Source: Dyella silvae (GTDB lineage: Bacteria > Pseudomonadota > Gammaproteobacteria > Xanthomonadales > Rhodanobacteraceae). Taken from it: DNA of 64,000 nt. Each line of letters starts with the position of its first letter. Position 1 is the first letter of the stretch. The stretch spans positions 1 to 64,000 of the forward strand of contig NZ_JAPJBQ010000009.1 of NCBI RefSeq assembly GCF_026421305.1, in the 5' to 3' direction. Below are positions 1 through 43,536 of this stretch, in pieces. Position numbers and translations under genes: made by a program. Below the pieces are notes generated by a model. It had not been told where the DNA came from and did not search any database. It saw nothing but the letters and a program-made list of their open reading frames with translations.

Positions 1-13
1 ATTCGTAGCCTGC

Positions 14-114
14 GTTGGTCACATGCGGCCGCCAGGGAGTGGGGCGTGGCGCAGCACCTGACTGGCCGTCAGGTCAAGCCGCGACCCACTCCCTGGCGGC
101 CGCATGTGACCAAC
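14..114 (-). repeat. Hairpin element copy A: conserved core, variable arms
   Basis: Two 30-base arms (14-43 and 85-114) are perfect reverse complements around a 41-base centre. On the minus strand the centre begins CGCGGCTTGA, carries the small hairpin CCTGAC-ggcca-GTCAGG, and ends CTGCGCCACGC. The same centre occurs on the plus strand at 20429-20467 between arms of unrelated sequence. The inner stem differs by a T-A to A-T swap between the copies, which fits selection for a folded RNA or single-stranded DNA. I do not recognise the family. Confidence 0.8.
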
Positions 115-25991: not shown

Positions 25992-27709
25992 GCGGTGACT
26001 CCTGCAGTCGTGTCTTCGTGTGCGTGGTAGGAAGAAGTAGCTGTATGGGTGGTGCGTACTGCGGATGGATGCGTGGTGGCGCCGTCGGAGGCGGAGCCGA
26101 CCAGTTGTGCGTACTTGGCCAGCGCGCCGCGGGTGACCTTGGGCGCCGGTGGCTGCCAGCCGGCGCGGCGTGGGGCGAGGTCGGCGGTGGTGCTGATCTC
26201 GCGGGTGTCGGCGTCGATGCGGATGCGATCGCCTTCGCGCAGCAGCGCAATGGGGCCGCCGCGTGCGGCTTCAGGGGCGATGTGTCCGACCATGTAGCCG
26301 TGCGTGGCGCCGGAGAAGCGGCCGTCGGTGATCAGCGCGACGTCGTCACCGAGACCACGTCCGACCAAGGCGGCAGTGACGCCCAGCATTTCGCGCATGC
26401 CCGGGCCGCCGGCGGGGCCTTCATTGCGAATGACGATGACATCGCCTTTCTCGATCAGGCCGCCCTGCACGGCGGCGAAAGCCTGTTCCTCGCTTTCGAA
26501 GACGCGAGCGCGGCCTTCAAAGTGGTTCGCGCCCTTGCCGGCTAGCTTGAGGATGCAGCCCTCTGGCGCGAGGTTGCCGTAGAGGATCGAGTAGCCGCCT
26601 CGCGGCTTCAGCGGTTGCGTGACCGGATGCACCACGTCCTGCTTTTCTGCGCGTGGCGCGGCGGCGGCTTCCTCAAAAAGGCTGCGGCCAGTGATGGTGG
26701 GCGCATCGTCCAGCATGCCCGCCGCGATGAGTTCCTGCGCGACGCGTGCGCTGCCGCCTGCACCGAACATCTCCACGGCGGTATAGCGGCCACCTGGCAG
26801 CAGATCGGCGATCACGGGTGTCTGCCTGGATGCCGGCTCGAAGTCCTCCAGCGTCCACGGCGTGCCCGCTTCGCGCGCAATGGCCAGCAGATGCAACACC
26901 GCATTGGTGGAACCGGCGGTGGCCGCGACCATGCGAGCGGCATTGCGGAATGCTGTCTGCGTGAGCAGTTCGCGTGGCGTGCGGTTCTCCTTCAGGCACG
27001 TCATCACCAGCTCGCCGCAGCGGCGCGCGGCGGCTGCCTTGGCCGGATGAGTGGCGGGAATATCGTTGAAGCCCATCGGCGACAGGCCCAGCGTGGACAG
27101 CACCATCGCCATGGTGTTGGCTGTGAACTGGCCGCCGCAGGCGCCGGCGCCCGGGCAGGCGTCGCGCTCGACTGCGGTGAGTTTGGCGTCGTCGATCTTG
27201 CCGGCGCCATGCGCGCCGACCGCCTCAAACACCTGCTGGATGGTGATGGGGTGATTGTCGTGCGTGCCGTGCGCAATGGTGCCGCCGTACAGCGCGACGC
27301 TGGGGATGTTGAGGCGAGCCATTGCCATCGCAGCAGCGGGAATGGTCTTGTCGCAACCGCACAGCACCACCATCGCATCAAGGCAGTGGCCGTCGACAGC
27401 CAGCTCGATCGAATCGGTAATCACCTCGCGGCTGATCAACGACGCGCGCATGCCCGGCGTGCCCATGGCGATGCCATCGGTGACGGCAATGGTGTTGAAC
27501 TCGATCGGCGTGCCGCCGGCGGCGCGGATGCCTTCGGCGACGTGTTCGGCGAGTTCGCGCAGATTGAGATTGCACGGACTCACGTTGGACCACGTATGCA
27601 CCACCGCGACCAGCGGTTTGGTGATGGCGTCGTCGTCGAGTCCCGTGGCGCGCAGCATGGCGCGTGCGGGGGCGCGGTCGGGTCCGGTTTTGATCAGGTC
27701 ACTACGCAT
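25988..27709 (-). CDS. ilvD: Dihydroxy-acid dehydratase
   Basis: Fe-S dehydratase of the IlvD/Edd family (573 aa) that makes the 2-oxo acids for valine and isoleucine. Cluster cysteines are in [12 protein letters not shown] and [14 protein letters not shown]; the third conserved region is [18 protein letters not shown] chose the ATG at 27709 ([14 protein letters not shown]) rather than a TTG nine codons upstream. The last ~30 residues are Thr/His/Ser-rich and look unconserved. It overlaps ilvC by four bases; a palindromic repeat fills the gap to leuB. Confidence 0.96.
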
Positions 27710-27761
27710 GCGTGGTTTCCGAAGAATGGAGATCAAGGCTTGCAGCTGCCGACAAAGTTGC

Positions 27762-27871
27762 CGTCATCCCAGCGAAAGCTGGGATCCAGTGACTTTTGCG
27801 TGCCGTAAAGGCGCTGGATGACCAGCCCTTCGGCTGTTGAAAGAGCGCCTCCAGCTTTCGCTGGAATGACG
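27762..27871. repeat. Palindromic repeat between leuB and ilvD
   Basis: CGTCATCCCAGCGAAAGC... at 27762-27790 pairs imperfectly with 27849-27871. The centre includes a second short palindrome (CCAGCCCTTCGGCTG). It is of the same family as 16637. Positions 27710-27901 hold nothing else that I can see. Confidence 0.75.
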
Positions 27872-27901
27872 ATGTGGAACTAACCAAGGGAATGGCAAAG
27901 A

Positions 27902-28999
27902 TCAGCCGCATGCGCGCCCCCAGCGGAGAAAAGCCGCCGCGTTGCAGGCGTGTTCGTCAATGGCGGCGAGCACGGCCTCCAGCACCTCCTGCGTACCGGC
28001 GGTGCCGCCGATATCGCGCGTGTGCGGCCCTTGCTCCAGCACATCGGCGACGGCGGCCTCCACCGTGCCCGCTTCCTGTTCCATGCCCAGCGAGTGACGC
28101 AACAGCATGGCGGCGGAGAGAATGGCGCCGATGGGATTGGCCACGCCCTGGCCGGCGATGTCTGGCGCAGAGCCGTGGATCGGCTCGTACAGACCGCCCT
28201 TGCTTTCGCCCAGTGATGCGGATGGCAGCAGGCCCAGGGAGCCGGCCAGTGCAGCGGCTTCGTCGGTCAGGATGTCGCCGAACAGATTCTCGGTGACTAC
28301 GACGTCGTACTTGCCCGGCTGCGTCAGCAGCAGCATCGCCATGGAGTCGACCAGCTGGTGTTCCAGCTTCACGTCCGGAAATTCGTTAGCGATGCGCTGC
28401 ACCGTGGTGCGCCACAGACGCGAGGTTTCCAGCACGTTGGCTTTGTCCACCGAGGTCACGTGCTTGCGGCGTTCGCGTGCCAGCTCAAAGGCACGGCGCG
28501 TCACGCGTTCGACTTCGGCCACCGTGTACTTGCACTCATCGGTGGCGGTGTCGAAGGTGCGCGTCTTGGCACCGAAGTAAGCACCGCCGGTGAGTTCGCG
28601 CACGAACAGCACGTCGACGTTCTTCAGTTTTTCGTTCTTCAGCGGCGACAGCGCGGCCAACGCCGGATGGACCTGCAGCGGACGCAGGTTGGCATAGACG
28701 CCAAGGGCAGCGCGCAGAGCGAGCAAACCCTGTTCCGGACGAACCGGTGCATTCGGGTCGGACCACTTCGGGCCACCAACCGCGCCGAGGAGCACGGCAT
28801 CAGCGGCCTTGCAGGCTTCCAGTGATGCGGCCGGCAGCGGTTCGCCGGTGGCATCGATGGCGCAGCCACCGATCAGCTGTTCTTCGAAATGGAAGTGATG
28901 GTCGTAGTGCGCGGCAACGGCATCGAGTACGGCAACCGCCGCTGCAGTGACCTCGGGACCGACGCCGTCGCCGGGCAGGGTGACGATATGCGCTCTCAT
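27902..28999 (-). CDS. leuB: 3-isopropylmalate dehydrogenase
   Basis: NAD-dependent oxidative decarboxylase (365 aa) of leucine synthesis. Features are [10 protein letters not shown] at the N-terminus, the substrate-binding [33 protein letters not shown], and the metal/substrate aspartates around [13 protein letters not shown]. The NAD-site segment [21 protein letters not shown] confirms NAD rather than NADP specificity of the IPMDH type. The start overlaps the leuD stop by four bases. Confidence 0.97.
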
Positions 29000-29580
29000 G
29001 CAGCTTTCTCCATGCGTTGTTCGTAGGCGGTGATGGCGTCCTGGTGTTGCTGGAGATAGCCCAGCTGGTCTACGCCGTTGAGCAGGCAGTGACGTGCAAA
29101 GGGTTCGAGCTGGAAGCGGATGTGGCCGCCGTCCGGCAGGGCGATGACCTGCTCGCGCACGTCGATGCTGAGTTCGATACCGGGATGGTCGAGCAGCCAG
29201 CGGTGCTCGGCATCGTCCAGCACGATGGCAAGCAGGCCATTCTTCAGTGCGTTGTTGCGGAAGATGTCAGCGATCTCGCTGCACAACACGGCCTGGATGC
29301 CGTAGTCGAGCAAGGCCCACGGCGCGTGTTCGCGCGAGGAACCGCAACCGAAGTTGCGGCCGGCAACGAGGATGGCGCAACCCTTCGCTTGCGGCTGGTT
29401 CAGCGGGAAGGCCGGGTTATCGCTGCCATCGGTCTGATAGCGCCAGTCGTTGAAACACAGCTTGCCCAGGCCGGCGCGTTCGGTGGTGGTGAGAAAGCGC
29501 GCCGGGATGATGCGGTCGGTGTCGATGTTCTCGTCCGGCAGTACGGCCGTGCGGGAGTGGAGGCGGGTGATGGGACGCAT
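28996..29580 (-). CDS. leuD: 3-isopropylmalate dehydratase small subunit
   Basis: Swivel-domain subunit (194 aa) of isopropylmalate isomerase, paired with LeuC. Conserved parts are [17 protein letters not shown] near the start and the substrate loop [19 protein letters not shown] chose the ATG at 29580 ([11 protein letters not shown]), which has CGGAGA upstream; an in-frame GTG 24 bases earlier is less likely. It overlaps leuB by four bases. A 136-base repeat separates it from leuC, an unusual break between two subunits of one enzyme. Confidence 0.96.
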
Positions 29581-29626
29581 TAACAGATCTCCGGACAACA
29601 GCACGCTGCAAAGGTGCGCGCACTAG

Positions 29627-29762
29627 CTCCCTCTCCCCTGCGGGGAGAGGGTGGGGGTGAGGGGCGGGTGCTTGCGATGGCATTCATCGAAGCGACGCTC
29701 GAAGAGGCGATGAGGCCAGATTGACCCCTCACCCCAGCCCTCTCCCCGCAGGGGAGAGGGAG
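29627..29762. repeat. CTCTCCC...GGGAGAGG dispersed repeat between leuC and leuD
   Basis: Same layout as 10449-10572: terminal hairpins CTCTCCCCtgcGGGGAGAGG and inner GGTGAGGGG / CCCCTCACC pairs, with a variable middle. It lies in the spacer between the two isomerase subunit genes. Confidence 0.85.
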
Positions 29763-29779
29763 CGAAAAGCTCACGCGCT

Positions 29780-31189
29780 TCATGCTGCCACCTCCGTCAT
29801 GTACTCACGCGGATCAGCAATGCGGCCGGCCACAGCCGAAGCAGCAGCCGTCGCCGGACTCGCCAGCACCGTGCGCGCGCCCTTGCCCTGACGACCTTCG
29901 AAGTTGCGATTGGAGGTACTCACCACCAACTGACCCGGCTGCGCCAGGTCGCCATTCATGGCGATGCACATCGAACAACCCGGCACGCGCCACTCGGCAC
30001 CGGCCGAGGTAAACACGTGATGCAGGCCTTCGTTCTCCGCATCGCGGCGCACCGCTTCGGAGCCCGGCACCACCAGCATGCGCACACCTTCCGCCACGCG
30101 CCGGCCACGCAGCACGTGAGCGGCTTCGCGCAGGTCGGACAAACGCGAGTTGGTGCAGCTGCCGACGAACACCACGTCCACCGGCGTGCCCTGCATGGGC
30201 TTGCCCGGCTCGCTCTTCATGTAGTCGAGCGCGCGTTTCTCCTGCGCGTTGCGGGCGGCTGGCACCGGCTTGTCCATGGCGATGGCCATGCCTGGGTGCG
30301 TGCCGTAGGTGACCGTGGGGCGCACTTTGGTCGCGTCGATGTGTACTTCGCGGTCGTACGCGGCGCCGTCGTCGGTACGCAGCGAGGTCCAGCGCGCGAC
30401 GGCGGCATCCCACGCGGCGCCCTGCGGTGCGCGCGGGCGGCCCTTCAGCCAGGCGAAGGTGGTGTCGTCCGGTGCGATCAGGCCGGCGCGCGCGCCTGCT
30501 TCGATGGACATGTTGCACACCGTCATGCGCTCTTCCATCGACATCTGCGCGATGGCTTCGCCGCGATACTCGATGACGTAGCCGGTGCCGCCATCCACGC
30601 CGATCTCGCCGATGATGTGCAGGATCAGATCCTTGGCACCCACGCCGGCCGGCAGCTTGCCATCCACATGGATCGCCAGGGTTTTCGGCTTGCGCTGCAA
30701 CAGGCATTGGGTCGCCATCACATGGCCGACTTCGGTGGTGCCGATGCCGAACGACAACGCGCCGAACGCGCCGTGCGTGGAGGTGTGGCTGTCGCCGCAC
30801 ACGATGGTCATGCCCGGCTGTGTTGCGCCGAGCTCAGGGCCGATCACGTGCACGATGCCGCGGTCGTTGCTATCCCAGCCGTGCAGCTCAACGCCGAACT
30901 CGCGGCAATTCGTTTCGAGCTGCGCGACCTGCGCCTTTGCTTCCGCGTTCGCGTAAGGGCGTTCGCCATCCGCACCGGCGGGCAGGGTGGGTGTGGAGTG
31001 GTCCAGCGTCGCCAGCATGCGATCAGGGCGACGCAGCTTCAGGCCGCGCTCGCGCAGTTCGCTGAACGCCTGCGGTGAAGTGACTTCGTGCACCAGGTGC
31101 AGGTCGACGTAGAGGACGGCCGGCGTGTCGGTGGACTCGGGTGCAACGACGTGCGCGTCCCAGATTTTTTCGAAAAGCGTCTTAGCCAT
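29780..31189 (-). CDS. leuC: 3-isopropylmalate dehydratase large subunit
   Basis: Aconitase-family subunit (469 aa) that carries the [4Fe-4S] cluster for isomerising 2- to 3-isopropylmalate. The cluster cysteines are in [14 protein letters not shown] and [31 protein letters not shown] is the conserved substrate segment. I chose the ATG at 31189 ([13 protein letters not shown]); it shares one base with the ilvE stop (TAATG), so translation is coupled to ilvE. Confidence 0.97.
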
Positions 31190-32127
31190 TACGCAGCCTC
31201 CTGCGCGGCTTCGACTTGAACTGGGGTGAGCCAATTCCACTGGTCTTCCGTGGTGCCGTCGAACAGCCCGAAGAAGGCCTTTTGCAGCGCGCGAGTCACA
31301 TCACCCGGCCGCCCGGCACCGACTTGCTTGCGATCCACCGAACGCACCGGCGTGATCTCGGCAGCAGTGCCGGTCATGAAGATTTCATCGGCGGTGTACA
31401 GCGCTTCACGCGGCAGGTCGCGTTCTTCCACCGCGATGCCGAGTTCGCCCGCGAGCGTGATCACCGATTCGCGCGTAATGCCAGCCAGAATGCCTGCACT
31501 GGTCGGCGGCGTGAGCAGCTTGCCGTTCTTCACCAGGAACAGGTTTTCACCCGCACCTTCGCTCAGCAGGCCGTTGTGGCCCAGCGCGATGCCTTCGGCG
31601 TAGCCGCCGCGGCGTGCCTCAAGGGCAATCAGCTGGCTGCTGAGGTAATTGCCGCCCGCCTTGGCCCAGCTGGGAAAGGTGTTTGGGGCGGGACGATGCC
31701 ATGACGACACGCACACGTCGGCGCCATGTTCGATGGCGTCGCCGAGATACGCACCCCATTCCAGCGCCATGATCGCCACGTCGACCGGCGAGTCGCCCTT
31801 GGGTAACACGCCAAGGCCGCCTGCGCCGCGGAACACGATCGGACGCACATAGGCTGCCTTCATGCGGTTGGCGCGGATCACCTCGTGACAGGCCGCGTTG
31901 ATCTCGTCTTCGGAGTAACCGATCTCGATCTCGTAAATTTTGGCCGACTCGAACAGGCGGCGCGTGTGGTCGGCGAGGCGGAAGTAGGCCGGCCCTTGCG
32001 GCGTCGCATAAACGCGTTCGCCTTCGAACACCGAAGAGCCGTAGTGCAGTGCGTGAGTGCTGACGTGAACGGTGGCCTCGGTCCAGGGTTTGATCTGGCC
32101 GTTGTGCCAGAGGAATGGCGTGGTCAT
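31189..32127 (-). CDS. ilvE: Branched-chain-amino-acid aminotransferase
   Basis: Fold-type IV PLP aminotransferase (312 aa) that does the last step for leucine, isoleucine and valine. The opening [24 protein letters not shown] and the segment [13 protein letters not shown] are typical of BCAT. The cofactor lysine is in the [13 protein letters not shown] region, and [14 protein letters not shown] and [12 protein letters not shown] follow. It lies 18 bases after leuA and is coupled to leuC by TAATG. Confidence 0.96.
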
Positions 32128-32145
32128 TGTGAGATCTCCTCGGAG

Positions 32146-33738
<1,593 letters not shown>

Positions 33739-33772
33739 TGCTTAGCTCCGCTGGCACGCGCCGTTGGGCAAC

Positions 33773-33806
33773 AAAAAACCCCGCATCCGTTACCGGGTGC
33801 GGGGTT
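33773..33806 (-). terminator. Attenuator terminator of the leu-ilv operon
   Basis: On the minus strand a 13-base stem with one mismatch (33806-33794 with 33789-33777, GUAA-type loop) is followed by six T. It lies between the leader peptide and leuA. The leader segment GGTGCGGG (33858-33865, just after the Leu/Val/Ile codons) is complementary to CCCGCACC in the 5' arm (33796-33803), so it can compete with terminator formation. Confidence 0.88.
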
Positions 33807-33853
33807 CTTCGGTGGTATTCAGGTGATCTTTCTAGTTACCTGGACACACGCCC

Positions 33854-33991
33854 TCAGCCCGCACCTCCGTTGGTAATAAGGAGTACGAGTACAAGGGCAA
33901 GAAGGAGGTTGTTGCGAAGGCGCGGCGCGCCGCCGATGGTCGGAGGACCAATCGGTTCGGCAATGCGATCGTGGCTGTTGCGCTGCGTCAT
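33854..33991 (-). CDS. leu-ilv operon leader peptide (45 aa)
   Basis: Small reading frame ahead of leuA, beginning MTQRNSHDRIAEPIG and ending NNLLLALVLVLLITNGGAG. Eleven consecutive residues near the end include six Leu, two Val and one Ile, the amino acids made by the operon. Ribosome stalling at these codons would alter pairing of the following RNA and prevent the terminator at 33773-33806. The putative -10 box (or Shine-Dalgarno) TAGGGT lies only seven bases before the ATG. This is classic attenuation as in E. coli ilv and leu operons, but the long N-terminal part (30 residues before the Leu run) is unusual. Confidence 0.87.
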   Translation of the reverse strand: MTQRNSHDRIAEPIGPPTIGGAPRLRNNLLLALVLVLLITNGGAG

Positions 33992-33998
33992 GTGATCG

Positions 33999-34028
33999 AC
34001 CCTAATGGGGGCCGTAACGGGTTGTCAA
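33999..34028 (-). promoter_or_regulatory. Promoter of the leu-ilv operon
   Basis: On the minus strand a perfect -35 box TTGACA (34028-34023) is followed after 18 bases by TAGGGT (34004-33999), a TAnnnT-type -10. If correct, transcription would start at or within a base or two of the leader-peptide ATG (33991). TAGGGT could instead serve as a Shine-Dalgarno sequence, eight bases from the ATG. Confidence 0.6.
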
Positions 34029-34125
34029 CAGTTTCTTTTGAAATTTTTGAGATCGCGTGCCGCCGCGCACATTTGGACGTCCAGATGGCTAGACGCCTTC
34101 CGATGCCCGCGACGCTGATGAAACC

Positions 34126-34743
34126 TCACTCGCTGGCGAGCTCCTGCAGGTACAGCGCCAGGGCGCGCTGCAGCTGGGTTTGCGCGGACTGACGGAGGGT
34201 TGCCGGCTGCTCGTTCTGGAGCGCCGTAGCGGCCTTCATCAGTTGCTGCACCACCATCGCGGCGGGGCGAAGATCACCGGCGGCGAGCTTTGGCGCATGG
34301 ATGGCGAGAATCTGGCAGAGATAATCGCGCATGCGTTGGCGTATGGTGCGGCCCAGCAAAGAGGGCTGTGAGCCGGTGGCTTCCTGCAGCGCCACGAACG
34401 AAGGGTGCTGCTTGCGGTAATCAGCGAAGGTGCGGATGAGCCGGCCCGCCAGTTCGTTGGTATCCCAGCCCGGCACGTGTTCCAGCAGGCGCTCCATGCG
34501 CGCGTAAAGCGCCTCGGCATGGTCAAGCATCAGCGCCTCGGCCACCGACTCCTTGGTGGGGAAGAATTGGTAGAGCGAACCAATCGACGCCCCCGCCCGG
34601 GCGGCGATTTCGGTCATGGTGGTGGCGTCGTAGCCTCTTTCGACGAAACACGCGGATGCGGCTGAAAGCAGCGCCGCTACGCGCTCGCGCCCACGCTGAC
34701 GCTGTGGCGAGCGGCCGCTCTGGCTTGAATTTTGTGAGGGCAT
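34126..34743 (-). CDS. TetR-family transcriptional regulator
   Basis: TetR-type repressor (205 aa). The DNA-binding helix-turn-helix is at about 23-68 (LLSAASACFVERGYDATTMT, then GASIGSLYQFFPTKESV), and the ligand domain ends with a C-terminal helix rich in Gln/Leu. I chose the ATG at 34743 (MPSQNSSQSG), nine bases after GGAG. It is divergent from the YecD-like hydrolase, and an 8-bp palindrome lies just upstream of its start. It likely represses itself and possibly the hydrolase. The inducer is unknown. Confidence 0.9.
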   Translation of the reverse strand: MPSQNSSQSGRSPQRQRGRERVAALLSAASACFVERGYDATTMTEIAARAGASIGSLYQFFPTKESVAEALMLDHAEALYARMERLLEHVPGWDTNELAGRLIRTFADYRKQHPSFVALQEATGSQPSLLGRTIRQRMRDYLCQILAIHAPKLAAGDLRPAAMVVQQLMKAATALQNEQPATLRQSAQTQLQRALALYLQELASE

Positions 34744-34757
34744 CCTCATAAACTCCA

Positions 34758-34777
34758 ATGTGAGGGTAGCCTCACAT
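34758..34777. promoter_or_regulatory. Candidate TetR operator
   Basis: ATGTGAGG (34758-34765), four bases, CCTCACAT (34770-34777): a perfect 8-bp inverted repeat in the 165-base spacer between the divergent TetR and YecD-like genes, 15 bases from the regulator's start. A further half site CCTCAT lies at 34744-34749. Confidence 0.6.
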
Positions 34778-34908
34778 ATCTGATCCTTGTCCGGTAGCCG
34801 CCATGGTAAGGCCAGAGGCGGTGCAACCGCGATGTTGTCACTTTCCACCGGCGTTCGGGCAAGCCTCGCCCTGGCATGGCTGGCGCCACCAATGGCGGAG
34901 TATTTCCC

Positions 34909-35481
34909 ATGGAAAAGCTGGACCCCCGCACCACCGCGCTGGTGCTGATCGACCTTCAGAAAGGCATTGCCGGCTATGCCGGTGGCCCGCATGCCGCGGA
35001 CGACGTGTTCGAACGCGCTGGCCGCCTGGCCGCACGCTTCCGCGAAATCGGTGCGCCCGTCGTGCTGGTGCGGGTGAATTTCTCGGCGGATGGCAGCGAC
35101 ATGTTGCGCCCACTGGCCGACAAGCCGTCGCCAGGCAGGGATGGCCTGCCTGCCAACTGGCTGGAGTATGCCGATCAGCTCAATGCTGGCGAGGGCGACA
35201 TCCACATCATCAAGCGCCAATGGGGCGCCTTCTATGGCACCGAGCTTGAACTGCAGTTGCGCCGCCGTGGCATCACCCAGATCGTGCTGGGAGGGATTTC
35301 CACCAACATCGGCGTGGAGTCGACAGCACGCAACGCGTTTGAGCTTGGCTTCCAGCAGGTATTGGTGGAGGACGCCATGAGCTCTGCCGACGCGGTGCAT
35401 CATCGTTTCGCGGTGGAGAACATCTTCCCCCGGCTGGGGCGCGTGCGTTCCACGGAAGCCGTGCTGGCAGCGCTGGCCTGA
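34909..35481 (+). CDS. yecD: YecD-like isochorismatase-family hydrolase
   Basis: Cysteine-hydrolase-fold protein (190 aa) very similar in pattern to E. coli Yec[21 protein letters not shown] at the start, [22 protein letters not shown], then [20 protein letters not shown]. The aspartate (D15) and the lysine of IIKRQ are present, but the position of the usual catalytic cysteine is Gly in STNIGVEST, as in YecD and isochorismatases. Its substrate is unknown. I chose the ATG at 34909, with GGAG upstream, instead of an in-frame ATG at 34876. It is divergent from a TetR regulator that may control it. Confidence 0.9.
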
Positions 35482-35528
35482 GGCATCGTCGCCCTTTTCC
35501 CCTGCCCGGAATGACATGCCGGGAAGGG

Positions 35529-35554
35529 TCTGGCACTTTGCGGGAAGTGCCAGA
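35529..35554. terminator. Hairpin between convergent genes
   Basis: TCTGGCACTT (35529-35538) and AAGTGCCAGA (35545-35554) form a perfect 10-bp stem with a TGCGGG loop between the yecD-like gene and thrC. No T run follows on either strand, so a terminator role is possible but not typical. Confidence 0.45.
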
Positions 35555-35569
35555 TTCTCGGACCGAGCT

Positions 35570-36880
35570 TCACGCGGTCTGGTAAGCCAGCCAGTGCTTC
35601 AGTGCTTCGTCACTGGCAGGCATGGGCTCTGCGTGGGCCGGGCGTTGCAGCATGGCTTGCAGTGCGGGTGGCACGAGGATGGTGCGGCCAATCAGTGGCT
35701 CGACCACGCTGTCGAATTTCGACGGGTGGGCAGTGGCCACCACGGCCCACGCAAGATCGGTATCGCTCATGCCATCGAGCACATGCATGGCCGTGGCCGT
35801 GTGCGGACAGAACAGCTCGCCGTGATCACGCGCATGCCTGGCGATGGTGTCTCCAATGACGTCATCGTCCACGCTGCTGGCGTGCAGCTGCAGGCGTAGT
35901 TCGTGATCACGCGGAAAGGTCCAGCGCAGGCGTTCGAAGTTGCTTGGCGCGCCCACATCCATGGCATTGGCCAGCGTAGCTACGGCGGGACGGGGCGAGT
36001 AGGGCGCACCATCGAAGTAGTCGCTCAAGGTCGCATTGGCGTTGCAGGCCAGGTGGATTTCACCCACCGGCAAGCCCATCTCGCGAACCCATACGCAGGC
36101 CAGCGCGTTGCCGAGATTGCCGGTAGGCACAATGAAGTTGAGCGGCCTGTGGTGGCGATGCCACCAACCCAGGGCAGCATGCGCGTAGTAACTCATCTGC
36201 GGCAGCAGACGACCCAGGCTGATGCTGTTGGCAGACGACAACGGCACATGGGATTGCAGCTCGGTGTCGTTGAGTACGGCTTTCGCCATGCGCTGGCAGT
36301 CATCGAACGTGCCGGCGACGCGCAGCGCTTGCACGTTGTCGCCAAAGCAGCCCAGCTGGTGCGCCTGTCGGGGCGACACGCGGCCATCCGGATAGAGAAC
36401 AACGACGCGAATGCCGGGCTGCCGATGGAAGGCAGCCGCGACGGCGGCTCCGGTGTCACCGGAGGTGGCGACGACGATGGTCAGCGGCGCCGCCGCATCC
36501 CGGCGCAATCGCCGGAAACAGGCAGCCAGAAAGCGTGCGCCAATGTCCTTGAACGCAGCACTCGGGCCGTGGAAAAGCTCCAGTACGGAGGCGTCGTTGC
36601 GAAAGGATAGGGGGCGCAGCGGCACGTCAAAATCGAACGCCTCACGGCAAATGGCCGGCAACTCGCCAGCCATCGGCGAGCCGCGAAAAAACGGCTCCAG
36701 CAACGTAGAGGCGGTATCGGCCAGCGAACCGTTGGGATCAAACAAGGACGGATCCAGCGACGGCAGAGCCTCAGGCACGTACAAGCCGCCATCCGGCGCA
36801 AGCCCGGCAGCAATCACCTGTTCGATGCCCGCCGCATGTCGCGCGCCACGGGTGCTGCGGTAGTGCAACGGCTCACTCAT
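35570..36880 (-). CDS. thrC: Threonine synthase
   Basis: PLP-dependent enzyme (436 aa) that converts O-phosphohomoserine to threonine. The cofactor lysine is in [13 protein letters not shown] near residue 110. The phosphate loop [12 protein letters not shown] and the N-terminal YRSTRG segment are typical of the E. coli-type enzyme. The start overlaps the thrB stop by four bases. It is the last gene of hom-thrB-thrC. Confidence 0.97.
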
Positions 36881-37851
36881 GCCGCGGCCTCGCTCAACAC
36901 CGTGGCGGCTGGTCCGTTGATGGGCGACACCAGTGCGTCGCTGGCCAGACCCTCTTCGGCAAACGCGGCCACCATCGCTGCGGCGGCACGCTCGGCGTCG
37001 TCGCGCCGCTCATACCAGCCGAACACGCTGGGGCCGCCACCGGAAATGCTGGCGCCCAGCGCGTTGTGATCGAGCGCGGCCTGCTTCACGCGTGCAAAGC
37101 CAGGAATCAGCGGCGCGCGGCGGGGTTCCACCAGCACATCCTTCAGACCTTCACGCACCAGCGTGGCATCACCGCGATGACAACCCGTCAGCACCAGCGC
37201 GAGATTCGCGTGCTGCGTCACTACGTCGTGCAACGCAAAGCCATCGGCCAGCACGGTGCGGGAGCGCCGTGTTTCCAGCACCACATGGGGATGCACCAGC
37301 GCGCAATGCCAGCTGTCAGGCACCGGCAGGCGCAAGATGCGATCGCGTGTGGCCAGTACCAGGCCACCCAGCAGCATGGGACCGATGTTGTCGCCATGGC
37401 GGCTGCCACTCGCCACGGATTCCCCATCCATCGCAAACCCGTATAGCGCCTCGCGCGGCAGCTCTCGCTCGAGCAAGGCATTGGCCGCCACCAGCGCAGC
37501 AACGCATGAGGCCGCGGAGCCGCCCATCCCGGAGCCGAGCGCAATGCCTTTGTACAGCTCCACTTCGAAGCCGTGACGCAAGCCCAGCGCGCGACGCAGC
37601 GAGAGCAGCGCAGCGCCCGCGGTATTGGCGGCGGCATCGAGCGGCAAGTCGGTCACGCAGCCGTGCACGGCGGCGATGCGCACGGTGGGCTCATCGATAC
37701 GCCGCACCACCGCGCGATCACCCGCACCGGCCACGGTATGGCCCAGAATGTCGAAGCCCACCGCGACATTGCCGACGCTGGCATACGCCATGGCCTGAGC
37801 GCTCAACGCGCGTTGCGGGTTCGTCATGGGATCGGCCAACTGCGCACTCAT
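36877..37851 (-). CDS. thrB: Homoserine kinase
   Basis: GHMP-family kinase (324 aa) that phosphorylates homoserine. The ATP-binding glycine-serine loop is [19 protein letters not shown] near 105-122; the N-terminal [14 protein letters not shown] and the C-terminal [14 protein letters not shown] motifs complete the family signature. The start overlaps the end of hom by four bases and the stop overlaps thrC by four bases, so all three enzymes are translationally coupled. Confidence 0.97.
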
Positions 37852-38999
37852 GGGCGCACCTCCAGTGATTCGGCAATGCGTAACAGGTCAGCGAAGATAC
37901 CAGCTGCCGTTACTTCTGGGCCGGCACCGGGTCCTTGCACCAGCATCGGGTTCTCGCGATAGCGGTGCGTGGTGAACTGTACGATGTTGTCCGTGAGTCG
38001 CGTGTGCGCGAACGGATGCAAAGCGGGCAGCACGGCCAGGCGTACGCTGGCGTGCCCGTTCGCGTCGAGGCTGGCGACATGGCGCAGTACGCCGCCTTGT
38101 GTCTGAGCGGACGCAACGTTGCGAGCCATGGAGGCGTCGAGCAGATGCAGATGCTCCAGGGCGTCCTCAACGGAAAGCGCGGCAAGCTCGGGGGGCACCA
38201 GGCTTTGCACCTCCACATCGTCCAACGACAGCGACCAGCCCGCTTCGCGAGCGAGGATCACCAGCTTGCGCGCCACATCGAGACCCGAAAGATCGTCGCG
38301 CGGATCAGGCTCCGTATAACCCAGCGCGTGGGCTTCGCGTACCAGTGCGGAGAACGGGCGGCTGCCGTCGTGGCGATGGCAGAGCCACGCCAGCGTGCCG
38401 GAGAACATGCCCTCGACAGCGAGCAGCTCATCGCCGGTATCCAGCAGATCGCGCAAGGTCTGCACGACGGGAAGGCCGGCGCATACCGTGGCTTCGTAGC
38501 GAAAACGCGCACCCTGACTGCAGGCGGCGCGAATGGCCTGCAGACGCCATAGCGGTCCGCTGCCGGCAAGCTTGTTTGGCGTGACGACGTGGATGCCATC
38601 AGCCAGCCACTCCGCATAACGCGAGGCCACCGCTTCGTTCGCACTGCAATCGATCAGCAGCGCATGGCGGCCGTCCTCACCGCGCACATGGGCAGCAAAT
38701 TCGCGGAGGTCGCTGGGGCGCCAGGTTTGCGCGGTGCCATGGCGGCCATTGAGTTCCGGGTCGTCGGCATCCAGCCACATGCGGCGGCTGGCGGCGACGC
38801 CGCAGAGCTTAAGGTCCAGTCCGGCACGCGCCAGCCGCGGCTGCGCTGCGCGTAGCTGGTCAAGCAGGGCGCTGCCGACACGGCCGGGGCCGATCAGGCC
38901 CACGGCAAGCACGCGCTGGCGTGCGGTGACCGTCGGCAGCGCCATGGCATGCGGCGGTAGCGACGGTTGTTCGAGCGATGGTGATGCAGCAACGTTCAC
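37848..38999 (-). CDS. hom: Homoserine dehydrogenase without aspartokinase or ACT domain
   Basis: Stand-alone homoserine dehydrogenase (383 aa) equivalent to the C-terminal half of bifunctional ThrA/MetL. The NAD(P) site is [29 protein letters not shown] and the catalytic segment [19 protein letters not shown] follow. No aspartokinase domain precedes it and no ACT domain follows it, so the usual allosteric threonine inhibition may be absent. I chose the GTG at 38999 because TTGGAGG lies six bases upstream; the ATG 18 codons later is less favoured. It is the first structural gene after a Thr/Ile-rich leader. Confidence 0.93.
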
Positions 39000-39050
39000 G
39001 ATGGCCTCCAATAGGGGCCCGTGCTCGCTGGCGGGGTACGGAGAGTGCAC

Positions 39051-39077
39051 CGGCCCGCCTCATCGAGGGCGGGGCCG
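39051..39077 (-). promoter_or_regulatory. Attenuator-position hairpin of the thr operon
   Basis: CGGCCCGCC (39051-39059) is complementary to GGCGGGGCCG (39068-39077) with a one-base bulge, between the thr leader stop and hom. The position suits an attenuator, but there is no T run downstream on the minus strand, so control may be Rho-dependent or translational. Confidence 0.5.
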
Positions 39078-39093
39078 TTTGCGTTAGGGAAAC

Positions 39094-39246
39094 TTACTCG
39101 CGCACGGCAACCCACCCCGACCCGGTGGTAATAGTGGTCGTGGTGGTGGTCGTAGCGGCGATGGTCATGGCGCCTGCGCACAGTTGCATGCGCCCGGTGG
39201 AAACCGGGTACGAAGGCATGCGTGCTGGCATGAATGACGGCGACAT
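39094..39246 (-). CDS. thrL: thr operon leader peptide (50 aa)
   Basis: Small reading frame ahead of hom, beginning MSPSFMPARMPSYPV and including MTIAATTTTTTTITTGSGW near the C-terminus. The Thr/Ile run matches the purpose and pattern of E. coli ThrL. I give the ATG at 39246, but in-frame ATGs at 39231, 39219, 39189 and 39168 are also possible; the last gives a 24-residue peptide. TAAGGTCG lies upstream of 39246 exactly as TAGGGTCG does in the leu-ilv leader, and a -35-like TTGACT (39283-39278) is 18 bases further upstream. Confidence 0.85.
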   Translation of the reverse strand: MSPSFMPARMPSYPVSTGRMQLCAGAMTIAATTTTTTTITTGSGWVAVRE

Positions 39247-39324
39247 GGCACCGACCTTAGGTCGATTGCTGCACTGCAGTCAACAGGTACAAGTGAAACT
39301 TTAGCCGTCTGGCCTTCCGAAGCC

Positions 39325-39576
39325 TCAGTCGCGATTACCCCAATGCCAACGGGGCGGTTCGCCCTTGATCCAGCACACCAGGAGCAGTGCGGAGGTCAGC
39401 ACGCCGACGCAGAGCAACAGCAGGCCGTGTTCATGGTGAGGCATCAGCCACGACATGCACGCTCCCAACAGGCCGGCGTAGATCAGCATCACCACCAGGC
39501 CCTGCCAGGTGGTGGGAAAGCCCCAGCCCCATCCATAGCGTTTGGCCGGAAACCAGTATTTCTGCTCGCCTTGCAT
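39325..39576 (-). CDS. Small two-helix membrane protein (83 aa)
   Basis: Small inner-membrane protein with an aromatic N-terminus (QKYWFPAKRYGWGWGFPTTW) and two hydrophobic helices at about 26-45 and 51-70. The C-terminus KGEPPRWHWGNRD is polar and Trp-rich. I chose the ATG at 39576 because AGGGGG lies seven bases upstream; longer in-frame extensions are Arg-rich and unlike protein. Function is unknown. It is just upstream of the thr promoter on the same strand, but not part of that operon. Confidence 0.75.
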   Translation of the reverse strand: MQGEQKYWFPAKRYGWGWGFPTTWQGLVVMLIYAGLLGACMSWLMPHHEHGLLLLCVGVLTSALLLVCWIKGEPPRWHWGNRD

Positions 39577-39650
39577 CGAACGCCCCCTGCGGCGTTGGGT
39601 GGGAACGCGGCGGAGTCTACGCCACCGCGCGCTCCGCACCAGTGCTTGCC

Positions 39651-41636
39651 TCAGTGTGAGAGATCGATGGCGTAGACGGCGGAGCCATCGCCGCTGTCGC
39701 TGAGCTGGCGAATGCCCTTCAGACCCGCATCGTGCGCCACATCCTGCTTGCCGCTCGCGCCCTTGAACACCACGTCGCCGCGCGTCTTCAGCGGAGCGAA
39801 GCGCCAGGAGGATGACGGGAGATCCTTCGCGTCGATCGTCTGCTGATGCTGCAGCCACCTGGCCAGGATCTCGCGTGCGCCGTCTGGCGCGGACAGCACA
39901 ATGTTGCTGCCATCCAGGCCAGGGAAGTTGCCGCCACCGCTGGCGCGGTAGTTGTTGGTGGCCACGATGAACCGCTGTTGCGGCGACACCGGCTTGCCTT
40001 TGTAGCGAAGTTTGACGATGCGCTGACCCGCCGGCTTCGACACATCGATCTCATAGCTCAGCTCACCCTGGATCTGGTCGAAATTGAAGCCGGGGTAGTG
40101 ATCATTGATCAGCGATTGTTCGCCGTCCTTCGCCGGGTCGATACGGTTGAAGCGCTCGGCGGACTTCTCCAGCCAGGCTTTAAGGCCGGTGCCATCCACC
40201 TGCACGGCGGCCAGCGTGTTGGGGTAGAAGTACAGGTCAGCAGCGCTGCGCAGGGTCAGCGGGCCAGCGGCCACATCGGTGTAGTCATCGGGGCCGCCGA
40301 AGCCGGTACGGAACGCAGCGGCCGCCGAGAGCACCGGCAACGAGGCCAGCTCCGGATGCTGCCTGGGCAGTTCACGCTGCACGTAATCGCGCATGGCAGC
40401 ATTGATGGGCGCCAGTGCGGTCATGTTGCCGACGTCGGCGAAATAGCTGCTCATGCGCACGCGGGTGGTGCCGATCGGCGTGTTGACGTAGGCCATGGCG
40501 GCCTCATGGGCCTGTGCCACCACCGGCGCGATGGCCGGGTCGGCCGGCACGCAGTCGTTCTTGGCCGGACAGATGGGCCGCACCTCACTGTGCGTCTGGC
40601 CGGCGTCGATCACCCAGCGGCCGTCCTTGCGCTGCAGGGCGAGGTCGATCACGCCCAGGTCCTTGCCGAAGAAGCCGCCCATCACCGCCGGCTTGCCGCG
40701 TACGAAACCGCGTTCCGCATCCACCTCGGCCATGCCTTTGTAATGAGGGCCGGGGAATTCGGTGTGGGAGTGGCCCAGCAGCAGCACGTCGATGCCGGGG
40801 AGGCCGGCGAGATACCAGCCGCCGTTTTCCATGTCGGACGTGTACGGCGCGGTGTTGAGCCCGCCATGCAGAATGGCGACCACCAGGTCAGGGTGCTGCG
40901 CTTCCAGTTCCGGCAGGTACTTCTGCGCCGCCTCAACCACGCCGGTCACGGTGACCTTGCCGGCGAGGTTCTGTTTGTCCCACTCCAGGATCGGCGGCGG
41001 CGTAAAGCCAATGATGCCCACCTTGAGCGACACACGGCGGCGGGTGCCGTCCGGGGCCGTGACGCTGATGTCCTTCTGCACCACCGTCCAGGGTTTGAAG
41101 ATCGGCGCACCGTCGCGGGCACTGAACACATTGGACAGCACCAGCGGAAAGTGCGGGCCGGCACAGCGATCCGCGCGGCCGCCCTCGACGTTCATCGGGG
41201 TGCCGCTGACCTGGGAGAGGAAGCCCAGGCCGTAGTTGAACTCGTGGTTGCCCGCGGTGCCGCCGTCGTAACCCATGACGTCCATGGCGCGGTAAATGCC
41301 CAGCTCCTCGTTGCAACCGATCGGCTTCACCTGAGCCTGGTAGTCGGCCAGCACGCTGCCCTGAATGGTGTCGCCGCTGTCGAACAGGAAGCTGTCCGGA
41401 AACTGCGTGCGCGCCTGACGGATCAGCGTGGCGGTGCGCTCGTAACCCAGGGAGCGGTCCTCGCGCTGCTTGTAATAGTCATAGCTGAGCACGTTGGCGT
41501 GGACATCGGTGGTTTCCAGGATGGCCACCTGGGCCCGGCTACCTTCCGGCAGGTTCTCGGGCCGGGTCGTCTGGCTCGCGCAACCGGCCAGCGCGGCGGC
41601 GGCCAGGACGGCGAGGGGGAGCAGGCGAGGGGTCAT
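39651..41636 (-). CDS. cpdB: CpdB-like 2',3'-cyclic-nucleotide phosphodiesterase/3'-nucleotidase lipoprotein
   Basis: Calcineurin-type metallophosphoesterase joined to a 5'-nucleotidase C-terminal domain (661 aa), releasing nucleosides and phosphate from cyclic nucleotides outside the cytoplasm. The metal motifs are TTDVHANVLSYDYYK, FDSGDTIQGS, GTAGNHEFNYG and LLGHSHTEFPG. A lipobox LAGC at C19 shows it is a lipoprotein, whereas E. coli CpdB is soluble in the periplasm. The C-terminal substrate segment LYFYPNTLAAVQVDG is present. It is divergent from the sulfatase-like gene. Confidence 0.92.
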   Translation of the reverse strand: MTPRLLPLAVLAAAALAGCASQTTRPENLPEGSRAQVAILETTDVHANVLSYDYYKQREDRSLGYERTATLIRQARTQFPDSFLFDSGDTIQGSVLADYQAQVKPIGCNEELGIYRAMDVMGYDGGTAGNHEFNYGLGFLSQVSGTPMNVEGGRADRCAGPHFPLVLSNVFSARDGAPIFKPWTVVQKDISVTAPDGTRRRVSLKVGIIGFTPPPILEWDKQNLAGKVTVTGVVEAAQKYLPELEAQHPDLVVAILHGGLNTAPYTSDMENGGWYLAGLPGIDVLLLGHSHTEFPGPHYKGMAEVDAERGFVRGKPAVMGGFFGKDLGVIDLALQRKDGRWVIDAGQTHSEVRPICPAKNDCVPADPAIAPVVAQAHEAAMAYVNTPIGTTRVRMSSYFADVGNMTALAPINAAMRDYVQRELPRQHPELASLPVLSAAAAFRTGFGGPDDYTDVAAGPLTLRSAADLYFYPNTLAAVQVDGTGLKAWLEKSAERFNRIDPAKDGEQSLINDHYPGFNFDQIQGELSYEIDVSKPAGQRIVKLRYKGKPVSPQQRFIVATNNYRASGGGNFPGLDGSNIVLSAPDGAREILARWLQHQQTIDAKDLPSSSWRFAPLKTRGDVVFKGASGKQDVAHDAGLKGIRQLSDSGDGSAVYAIDLSH

Positions 41637-41823
41637 GCGGCACAGTCCATGGTGGCAAAGGGCGAGACCCTAACAGATCGGCGTGACAGCTCGCCGGCGG
41701 CAACGGCCGCTGAACCGTTTCGCGGCATCCCCTCGCCGTTGCCGGCCGTTGTGCATGTGACATTCGCAAGTCCGTAGAATTGCGTCTCGATGACACTGAG
41801 GCCGGACAGGGGGCCCATCCGCT

Positions 41824-43536
41824 ATGCCGCGTTTTGTGCGGAAGACTGGATTATGGTTGGTGGCCGCAGGGTTCTTTCTGTTTTGCGTAAGCATGACAGC
41901 CCTGCCCGAACCGGACCATTTGCAGCAGACGTTTGTGATCGCGCTCATGGTGTGCGCGTTCGGTGTGTGCCTGTTCGCTTTTGGCCGTCCGGCCATGGCG
42001 CTGGTGGTGAGTGGCGGCCTGTTCCTCGGCCTCAACTTTCTCTCAGTGCTCAAGCTGCGCTATCTCGATTCGCCGCTGATGCCGGCGGACTTCATTTACT
42101 ACGCGCGTAGCAGCCTGCTGGAAACGCTGGGGCACTACCCGCACCTGTGGGGCCTGTGCCTGGTGATTGGCGTGGTGACGCCACTGGCCTTGTGGGCGGT
42201 GTGGCGCTGGGATCGCCGCTTGCTCGCGCATGTGACCCCCCGTCGTGCGTGGGCGCTGCGTGCGGGTGGCGTAGCGCTTTGGGCGATGGCGTTCTGGGTG
42301 TGCCTGTGGCCCAACGGGCCCTTTGCCGAGGTGCACGCGAGAAACGTGTGGGAGAAGCTCTCCGACGACGCGCAGATCACCAACTTCTTCGTCAACTTCA
42401 GCGATTCGGACGTCCGCATGCCCGAAACGGGCGACGATACGGCGGCTGAGCAGGAGTGGGGCCCGACGGCCGCGCGTGATCCGGCGGCCTTGCCCCGTTC
42501 ACCGGAAAGCTACCCGGACATTGTGCAGGTGCTGGAAGAGAGCACCTTCAACCCGTCCAACTTCACTCAGTGCAATATCCCCGAATGCCGCGTCGGCATG
42601 TTCAAGCCCGACGCGCGCACCCGCGCCACCGGTCCGATGCGCGTGCACACGTTCGGCGGCGGCACCTGGGTCAGCGAGTTCGCCACGCTCACCGGCATGC
42701 CGCAGGACATCTTCGGCCCGGGCGGCATGTATGCCCCGTATGTGCTGGCGCCGCACGTGCGCGACAGCCTGCCGTTGCAGCTGCAGCGGCTGGGGTATCT
42801 CACCGTGGCGATCTATCCCACCAATGGCAGCTTCCTCAACGGCCGCAATGCGTACAAGGCGTATGGCTTCGACGAGTTCTACGATGCCGGTCAGCTGGGT
42901 CTGAAGGAGTGGGAGGAAACCGACAAGCAGATGTTCGACGCGGCCAAGCGTGTCTACGACAAGGTGAAGAAGCCGGGCCAGCCGGTTTTCGTAATGATCC
43001 TCACGCTGGCCCAGCATGGCCCGCATGACTCCGATCCGCTGTCGACCTTGCCGGCACCGTTCAACAAGGCGCCGCTGAAGGGCTTGCCGGAGCGCGAGTC
43101 GCTTAACTTCAACACCTACCTGTCGAACCTGCACAACTCCGACGTGGCCATGCGCGGCCTGGAGCACGATTTCCTTGATCGCACGCAACACACGGTGATC
43201 GTGCATTTCGGTGACCACCAGCCGTCATTCAGCGGCTTGATCCGTGACATGCCGCGTACCTGGCCGACAGAGATGGCGGCGCACAAGGACTACCTCACCT
43301 ATTACATGATCAAGAGCAACTTCGAGAGCACGGCCCTGCCGCGCTATCCGATGCTCGATATCGCGTTGCTGCCGAGCATGGTGTTGCAGGCGGCGGACGT
43401 GCCGACGGACCCGTACTTCTCTGCCGCCATCGCGCTGCGTACGCGCTGCAATGGTCTGTACACCGATTGCGCGCAGCCGGAGCTGGTGAAGTCGTATCAC
43501 ACGTGGATTTTCGATCGGCTGCACGTGTACGAGTAA
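41824..43536 (+). CDS. LtaS/phosphoglycerol-transferase-like membrane sulfatase
   Basis: Membrane-anchored alkaline-phosphatase-superfamily protein (570 aa). About four to five N-terminal hydrophobic helices (residues 8-165) are followed by an extracytoplasmic sulfatase domain. The nucleophile region is near EESTFNPSNFTQ, with metal ligands in MILTLAQHGPHDSDP and VIVHFGDHQPSFSG. Relatives transfer phosphoglycerol or phosphoethanolamine to surface glycans or lipids, so modification of periplasmic glucans or lipopolysaccharide is a fair guess, not a certainty. It is monocistronic, and a palindromic repeat lies at its 3' end. Confidence 0.85.
   Translation: MPRFVRKTGLWLVAAGFFLFCVSMTALPEPDHLQQTFVIALMVCAFGVCLFAFGRPAMALVVSGGLFLGLNFLSVLKLRYLDSPLMPADFIYYARSSLLETLGHYPHLWGLCLVIGVVTPLALWAVWRWDRRLLAHVTPRRAWALRAGGVALWAMAFWVCLWPNGPFAEVHARNVWEKLSDDAQITNFFVNFSDSDVRMPETGDDTAAEQEWGPTAARDPAALPRSPESYPDIVQVLEESTFNPSNFTQCNIPECRVGMFKPDARTRATGPMRVHTFGGGTWVSEFATLTGMPQDIFGPGGMYAPYVLAPHVRDSLPLQLQRLGYLTVAIYPTNGSFLNGRNAYKAYGFDEFYDAGQLGLKEWEETDKQMFDAAKRVYDKVKKPGQPVFVMILTLAQHGPHDSDPLSTLPAPFNKAPLKGLPERESLNFNTYLSNLHNSDVAMRGLEHDFLDRTQHTVIVHFGDHQPSFSGLIRDMPRTWPTEMAAHKDYLTYYMIKSNFESTALPRYPMLDIALLPSMVLQAADVPTDPYFSAAIALRTRCNGLYTDCAQPELVKSYHTWIFDRLHVYE

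Follow-up and report, generated by a model that had tools for sequence, protein, structure and literature searches.

The window analysed here is a stretch of 64,000 nucleotides of Dyella silvae (NCBI RefSeq assembly GCF_026421305.1, contig NZ_JAPJBQ010000009.1, positions 1 to 64,000). Its minus strand carries two operons for amino-acid biosynthesis, leu-ilv and thr, each preceded by an open reading frame (ORF) for a leader peptide. The first gene past the leu attenuator is leuA (32146 to 33738), followed by ilvE, leuC, leuD and leuB, and the thr leader lies ahead of hom (37848 to 38999), followed by thrB and thrC; the genes were assigned with NCBIfam. The product of hom is a homoserine dehydrogenase that has no aspartate kinase domain: the gene, the start codon of which was chosen from a Shine-Dalgarno match, matched only the C-terminal part (positions 462 to 815 of 819) of the model for the bifunctional aspartate kinase/homoserine dehydrogenase and scored below the cut-offs of the bifunctional models, and the kinase half is absent from it.

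The leu leader ORF of 45 codons (33854 to 33991, minus strand) ends with LLLALVLVLLITNGGAG and has a Leu/Val/Ile run, LLLALVLVLLIT, near its end, and the thr leader ORF of 50 codons (39094 to 39246, minus strand) contains the residues TTTTTTTITT. A common layout, TTGAC(A/T)-18-TA(A/G)GGT-7-ATG, was found ahead of both. In the leu leader, the -35 element TTGACA (34028 to 34023) is followed after a spacer of 18 by TAGGGT (34004 to 33999), which is part of TAGGGTCG (34004 to 33997, five bases upstream of the ATG), and 7 nt separate this hexamer from the ATG at 33991 to 33989. In the thr leader, TTGACT (39283 to 39278), a spacer of 18, TAAGGT (39259 to 39254) and 7 nt lead to the ATG at 39246 to 39244. 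A preliminary description of this DNA had reported that the two leaders share TA(A/G)GGTCG and TTGAC(A/T) at equal spacing. A letter-by-letter check of the coordinates confirmed this, and in the 4.45-Mb genome of the strain the pattern TTGACN-N12..24-TARGGTCG-N3..8-ATG gave two matches, the leu and thr leaders, while the backward-read pattern gave none. Very probably, both operons are transcribed from promoters that start at, or a base or two from, the leader AUG and are controlled by leaderless or nearly leaderless sensors, with termination control for leu and, as the likelier though weakly supported output for thr, control of hom translation.

Conservation of the leader promoters

Leaders were gathered upstream of leuA and hom in relatives. 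Eighty named relatives were found with LeuA (Dyella, Rhodanobacter, Luteibacter and other Lysobacterales, with Dyella japonica the closest at 92% in the best segment); the 19 Rhodanobacteraceae-like among these 80 named loci, together with further genomes of the same family, yielded 63 leu and 42 thr leaders after identical copies had been removed. The sequences are related, and the 105 leaders are not 105 independent tests. The starts of the leu leaders were picked by the first codons and the Leu/Val/Ile run, the codon run having served to select the relatives as well, and in four thr leaders (L111, L140, L118 and L133) the start was set at the MSP ATG in place of an in-frame ATG further upstream, within the -10 element or the spacer. 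A leader ORF with a run of Thr codons was present at 45 of the 48 loci with hom; at L139 and L141 the leader start was at the expected place and the codon-run filter was not passed, and L013 starts inside hom. The leader ORFs comprised 38 to 53 codons.

In 63/63 leu and 42/42 thr leaders, TTGAC is separated by 17 or 18 nt from TANNNT, which in turn lies 6 to 8 nt from the leader ATG; the spacer is 18 in all of the thr leaders. Part of the set had been found with patterns that held some of the promoter letters, and hence the result was split by selection. LeuA homology was the sole basis for finding 20 of the leu leaders (that of the window and those of the 19 named loci), and all 20 kept the layout, TTGAC included; it was also kept in 32/32 for which TTGAC and the opening codons of the leader had been the only anchors, and in 11/11 whose search pattern itself held TANNNT. 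For thr, it was kept in all 31 leaders chosen without the thr promoter, by downstream-gene homology or neighbourhood; the remaining 11 had been chosen with the thr promoter pattern. The gap between hexamer and ATG was 7 in 79, 6 in 21 and 8 in 5 of the 105 leaders.

Within the hexamer, T1, A2 and T6 were invariant in 105/105 leaders and bases 3 to 5 were free. The leu hexamers were TACGGT, TACGTT, TAGGGT, TAAGGT, TAGGTT, TAGCGT, TACCTT, TAGCTT, TACTGT and TATGGT, and the thr hexamers were TAAGGT, TAACGT, TATGGT, TAGTGT, TATGTT, TAGTCT, TAAGTT and five single types; many versions, among them TACGTT, TAGCGT, TAACGT and TAGTGT, are without Shine-Dalgarno character. GGAG, GAGG or AGGA was found within 20 nt upstream of the ATG in only one of the 105 leaders. 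Because the -10 letters are invariant while the Shine-Dalgarno-like letters vary, TAGGGT and TAAGGT are, judged from this substitution pattern, -10 elements of sigma-70-type promoters and not Shine-Dalgarno sequences, a choice that the preliminary description had left open.

The opposite assignment takes TA(A/G)GGT for a Shine-Dalgarno sequence and puts the promoters further upstream, with ordinary 5' untranslated regions in both leaders. It draws on the AGGG and TAAGG found at a workable distance from the ATG in the window and on the duplexes with the anti-Shine-Dalgarno sequence, the strongest of which in the 105 leaders has -9.6 kcal/mol. Against it stand the variable G-rich middle of the hexamer, the constancy of T1, A2 and T6 and of TTGAC 17 to 18 nt upstream, and the T- and C-rich hexamers that the sister family has at the equal position; it was rejected on the substitution pattern and is very improbable. 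Certain observations nevertheless count against assigning the hexamer to a promoter. Pairing of the 20 nt upstream of the ATG with the anti-Shine-Dalgarno sequence had a median of -5.3 kcal/mol for leu and -4.25 kcal/mol for thr, and, were transcription to begin further upstream, the TAAGG or AGGG so placed might assist initiation. Moreover, a scan of the D. silvae genome with TTGACN-15..17-TANNNT-0..30-ATG gave 21 matches against 21 for the backward pattern, that is, no surplus at these spacers, which are too short for the leu and thr leader promoters with their spacer of 18.

The sister-family hexamers came from an order-level search that used TTGAC and the opening codons of the leader as its only anchors and matched in 51 of 299 genomes. 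TANNNT was present in 40 rows; the 11 rows without it, of which ten belong to a second family and one to a different genus within the family of D. silvae, had at spacer 18 a TGN followed by TTTTCT, TTACCT, TCTTCT or similar (TGN-TNNNCT), with TG in 11/11 and a gap of 6 or 7. An extended -10 was likewise seen in three named Lysobacter leaders and one Dokdonella leader, which had been found by the codon run without a promoter pattern. TGN-TNNNCT fits an extended -10 element, and by this comparison the type of promoter changed between the families and the distance to the ATG did not. The thr promoter pattern gave no match in the 299 genomes at order level with a threonine-codon gap set too short, so that this count is not evidence of absence; with a wider gap, matches were obtained in 8 of 59 family genomes.

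Specificity was examined on the window together with 56 loci of relatives, 57 stretches in all, a number of which overlap or come from one strain; they contain 19,493 ATGs. TANNNT at a gap of 6 to 8 preceded 182 of these, and the full layout TTGAC-17/18-TANNNT-6..8-ATG occurred at 94 (93 distinct), each of which was recognised as a leu or thr leader on visual inspection of its N-terminal peptide; two of them were the thr leader starts of L139 and L141.

Predicted transcript starts and leaderless translation

RNA polymerase with sigma-70 usually starts 7 to 9 bases past the -10 element. With gaps of 6, 7 or 8 nt, the A of the AUG is base 7, 8 or 9 past the hexamer, and it follows a pyrimidine in 105/105 leaders (C in 104 and T in one). 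As a fitting purine 7 to 9 bases past the -10 element, this A is the predicted transcript start, with an uncertainty of one or two bases to either side; in the window the starts would be A33991 for leu and A39246 for thr. The identity of the motif as a -10 element, combined with the usual distance from -10 to start, would make both transcripts leaderless or nearly so, and the leu-ilv and thr leader peptides would be translated from these mRNA ends without a Shine-Dalgarno sequence. From this anatomy we infer leaderless initiation and ribosome stalling as follows. The ribosome would load on the AUG as it emerges from RNA polymerase, read the peptide and slow down at the Leu/Val/Ile or Thr codons when the respective amino acids are scarce.

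In species with TAAGGT or TAGGGT, both functions might be combined, a near-leaderless promoter being accompanied by a second start upstream that gives a leadered form in which the motif serves as a Shine-Dalgarno sequence. In favour of this, TAAGGT is frequent (15/42 thr and 7/63 leu leaders). A consensus scan of 33600 to 39500 gave no sigma-70 promoter; it also missed both leader promoters and the leu terminator and is therefore uninformative, and no systematic search for a second promoter was made. We regard such a double start as very unlikely and prefer transcription that starts on the leader AUG or a base or two away from it.

The first seven codons of the leu leader (33991 to 33971 in the window) are closely kept among the relatives as ATG-NCG-CAR-CGC-ANC-ANC-CAY, and changes at their first and second codon positions were as frequent as at the third. 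Much of the leu set had been selected by the first codons; leaders found by LeuA homology or by the codon run show the same conservation. Over the first nine codons, too, third positions were no more variable than the others. What is conserved in the N-terminus of the leu leader may therefore be the RNA and not the peptide, which counts against the main interpretation. The constraint on the first codons looks to be at the RNA level, and perhaps serves leaderless ribosome loading.

Outputs of the leu and thr leaders

By its parts, the leu leader is a classical terminator/antiterminator attenuator. The control-codon run stands near the end of the leader ORF, and between the leader and the first gene lies an intrinsic terminator, a GC-rich hairpin followed by six T (33773 to 33806, minus strand). 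A hairpin with a T-run of at least 5 was present in 62/63 leu leaders, the sole leader without it (L128) having GTTTG after its hairpin. The last leader codons contain GGUGCGGG, which is complementary to the 5' arm of the terminator hairpin, and the antiterminator strand GGTGCGGG (33858 to 33865, minus strand), at the end of the leader ORF, is complementary to the same arm. The leu arms are nearly invariant among the relatives, and their own and cross pairs are alike (-18.0 and -17.8 kcal/mol), hence no covariation was obtained.

Equilibrium folding with the whole hairpin favoured the leu terminator at every ribosome position (0.90 to 0.97), as is usual for such attenuators; only a truncated co-transcriptional model, in which the RNA is cut ahead of the 3' arm of the hairpin, is informative for switching. 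As a mean of 62 leu leaders, pairing between the 5' arm and the leader end in this model was 0.65 to 0.69 when the free RNA started 12 to 36 nt before the stop codon. It was lower at 42 to 48 nt (0.39 to 0.43) and at 6 nt (0.45), fell to 0.11 when the free RNA started at the stop itself, and was 0 further downstream. Formation of the leu antiterminator in the model depends on ribosome position. A slowed ribosome would let the leader end pair with the 5' arm of the terminator, and transcription would continue into leu-ilv.

A search of positions 27000 to 42000 of the window against Rfam gave no match to a leader family, and the Rfam leader families were rejected as candidates: the eight matches at E values up to 1 were all microRNA models below their gathering scores. 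They fall on a long GC-rich palindrome (CTCCCTCTCCCCTGCGGGGAGAGGG...) at 29603 to 29789, between leuC and leuD, which may be an intergenic repeat.

Two conserved hairpins lie between the stop codon of the thr leader and hom. Hairpin 1 (39050 to 39077, minus strand) is not followed by a U-tract and has -14.4 to -22.5 kcal/mol in its distinct versions. In the predicted folds, hairpin 2 (38997 to 39023, minus strand) covers the hom Shine-Dalgarno sequence GGAGG (39005 to 39009) and the GTG start codon (38997 to 38999). No U-tract terminator was found in any of the 42 thr leaders, the longest T-run in the 18 nt after hairpin 1 being 0 to 2. The hom Shine-Dalgarno sequence was slightly less accessible than others: its mean unpaired value was 0.17 in the 42 leaders, compared with 0.28 for leuA (in the 42 of the 63 leu leaders where a site could be recognised) and 0.30 for shuffled controls. 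In hairpin 2, 88.0% of the cells were paired, compared with 41.6 to 68.2% with slid partners; shuffles also gave 88.0%.

A conserved hairpin over the ribosome-binding site of hom suggests translation control, and a sensor like that of leu would here be joined to hairpins without a U-tract. Several results weaken this proposal. Hairpin 2 is conserved without covariation, no pair being changed on both sides among the 42 thr leaders. In addition, the accessibility of the hom Shine-Dalgarno sequence was flat across the modelled ribosome positions (0.16 to 0.19), and the hom start codon opened only from 0.17 to 0.24 with ribosome position. Covariation in hairpin 1 amounted to one pair in one sequence, and RNAalifold gave -5.95 kcal/mol for the whole thr alignment with one covarying pair elsewhere.

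For thr alone, hairpin 1 could instead be a terminator of an unusual kind, without a U-tract, or a Rho-assisted one, and thr would then be controlled by transcription attenuation like leu. The strength of hairpin 1 is in line with this, and so is the ability of the leader end to pair with its 5' arm, with a mean of -22.0 kcal/mol for own pairs and -20.8 kcal/mol across species; hairpins without a U-tract have also been reported for the thrL and leuL1 leader peptides of Streptomyces (PMC8079986). On the other side, the leu terminators of these same genomes have a T-run of at least 5 in 62/63, and none of the 42 thr leaders has one. Termination at hairpin 1 is a real possibility for thr, to which we give rather less than even credence, and control at the level of hom translation is held to be slightly more likely, with weak support from the data.

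The cross-species pairing was also compared between groups. The Luteibacter leaders represented by L042 paired with their own arms at -20.5 kcal/mol and with the arms of the two larger groups at -13.6 and -15.0 kcal/mol, whereas the L008 arm gave -20.6 kcal/mol; Dyella leaders paired better with Luteibacter arms (-26.1 kcal/mol) than with their own (-23.5 kcal/mol). Because the L042 group pairs equally well with the L008 arm and the Dyella leaders pair better with Luteibacter arms, these values do not show co-adaptation of the thr leader and the arms.

Related systems and similar layouts at other genes

The leu, ilv and thr attenuators of Escherichia coli have leader peptides with codon runs, and untranslated 5' ends with a Shine-Dalgarno sequence. 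The leaders described here resemble them in the codon runs ahead of the leu/ilv and thr operons and in the terminator/antiterminator logic of leu, and differ from them in that the thr leader is without a U-tract terminator and both leaders are without a Shine-Dalgarno sequence.

The preliminary description had proposed leaderless leader peptides and had called attenuation driven by them unusual. Leaderless or near-leaderless starts are supported, as a prediction; the word unusual is too strong, as such cases have been reported in other bacteria. In the trpL attenuator of Sinorhizobium meliloti (rnTrpL, peTrpL), the transcript is reported from experiment to begin directly with the ATG of the leader peptide (PMC7298713). 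It shares with the present leaders a transcript from the leader ATG, here predicted, and ribosome-dependent transcription attenuation of an amino-acid operon, but it belongs to an alphaproteobacterium, senses tryptophan with a 14-residue peptide and has an experimentally determined start. In actinobacteria, leaderless leader peptides are reported for leuL1/2, trpL1/2, ilvL, metL and thrL of Streptomyces lividans, the genome of which has a -10 consensus of TAnnnT (PMC8079986), for ilvBNC of Corynebacterium glutamicum (PMC11857589) and for ilvB of Corynebacterium diphtheriae (PMC5784534). These too are leader peptides for leucine, branched-chain amino acids or threonine on leaderless mRNA, as predicted here, some without a U-tract terminator; the S. 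lividans peptides have 12 to 29 residues and few control codons, whereas the present ones have longer runs in 38 to 53 codons and occur in a gammaproteobacterial order. The LEU element of actinobacterial leuA combines a leucine leader ORF with an RNA structure covering the Shine-Dalgarno sequence of the first gene, a role that hairpin 2 may have at hom. The structure is a pseudoknot formed by pairing between the leucine codons and the Shine-Dalgarno sequence, and its authors consider that it is not based on leader translation (PMC1262725); the thr leader, by contrast, has threonine codons and two separate hairpins.

In the literature searched, with most subscription papers outside reach, no leaderless leader peptides were described for gammaproteobacteria. 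The leaderless leader layout is known elsewhere; here it is conserved at two operons of a gammaproteobacterial order, and the thr leader is without a terminator. As predicted, the present leaders would make attenuation dependent on leaderless translation in gammaproteobacteria, and at two operons side by side; a promoter and start codon are proposed for 105 leaders. The thr leader suggests that the same sensor layout can join a leader without an intrinsic terminator. The leu and thr operons are predicted to be sensitive to conditions that promote or hinder leaderless initiation. It is conceivable, though doubtful, that across the Lysobacterales the leu/branched-chain and thr sensors are obligately leaderless and differ in output (leu-ilv termination and hom translation). 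Leaderless loading would then free the sensor from Shine-Dalgarno initiation and allow it to report the state of 70S/leaderless initiation in addition to charged tRNA.

At the hisG locus (L115), no run of His codons was found in the three forward frames. A family-wide scan with TTGACA and a spacer of 17 or 18 was run on 59 family genomes, and the matches listed cover 29 of them. Among these (135 rows, nested longer copies being omitted; 128 distinct), the gap to the ATG was 7 in 22, 6 in 7, 8 in 8 and 28 in 31 rows. Fourteen of the listed rows with a gap of 6 to 8, and 11 of the 22 with a gap of 7, were leu or thr leaders already in the set. The peak at 7 is partly made up of these leaders, which account for half or less of those rows. 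A TTGACA-TANNNT unit, GGAATAGCTTTCGC, is conserved in many family genomes with an ATG about 28 nt downstream and, together with other rows, makes up the peak at gap 28 (31 of the 135 rows listed).

In the D. silvae genome, a similar layout with TTGACA upstream was seen at two MarR-family genes (Pfam), L156 (C11, near 593169) and L157 (C20, near 91548). TANNNT lies 7 or 8 nt before their ATG, the layouts being spacer 17 with gap 7 and spacer 16 with gap 8, and these two genes are possibly also leaderless.

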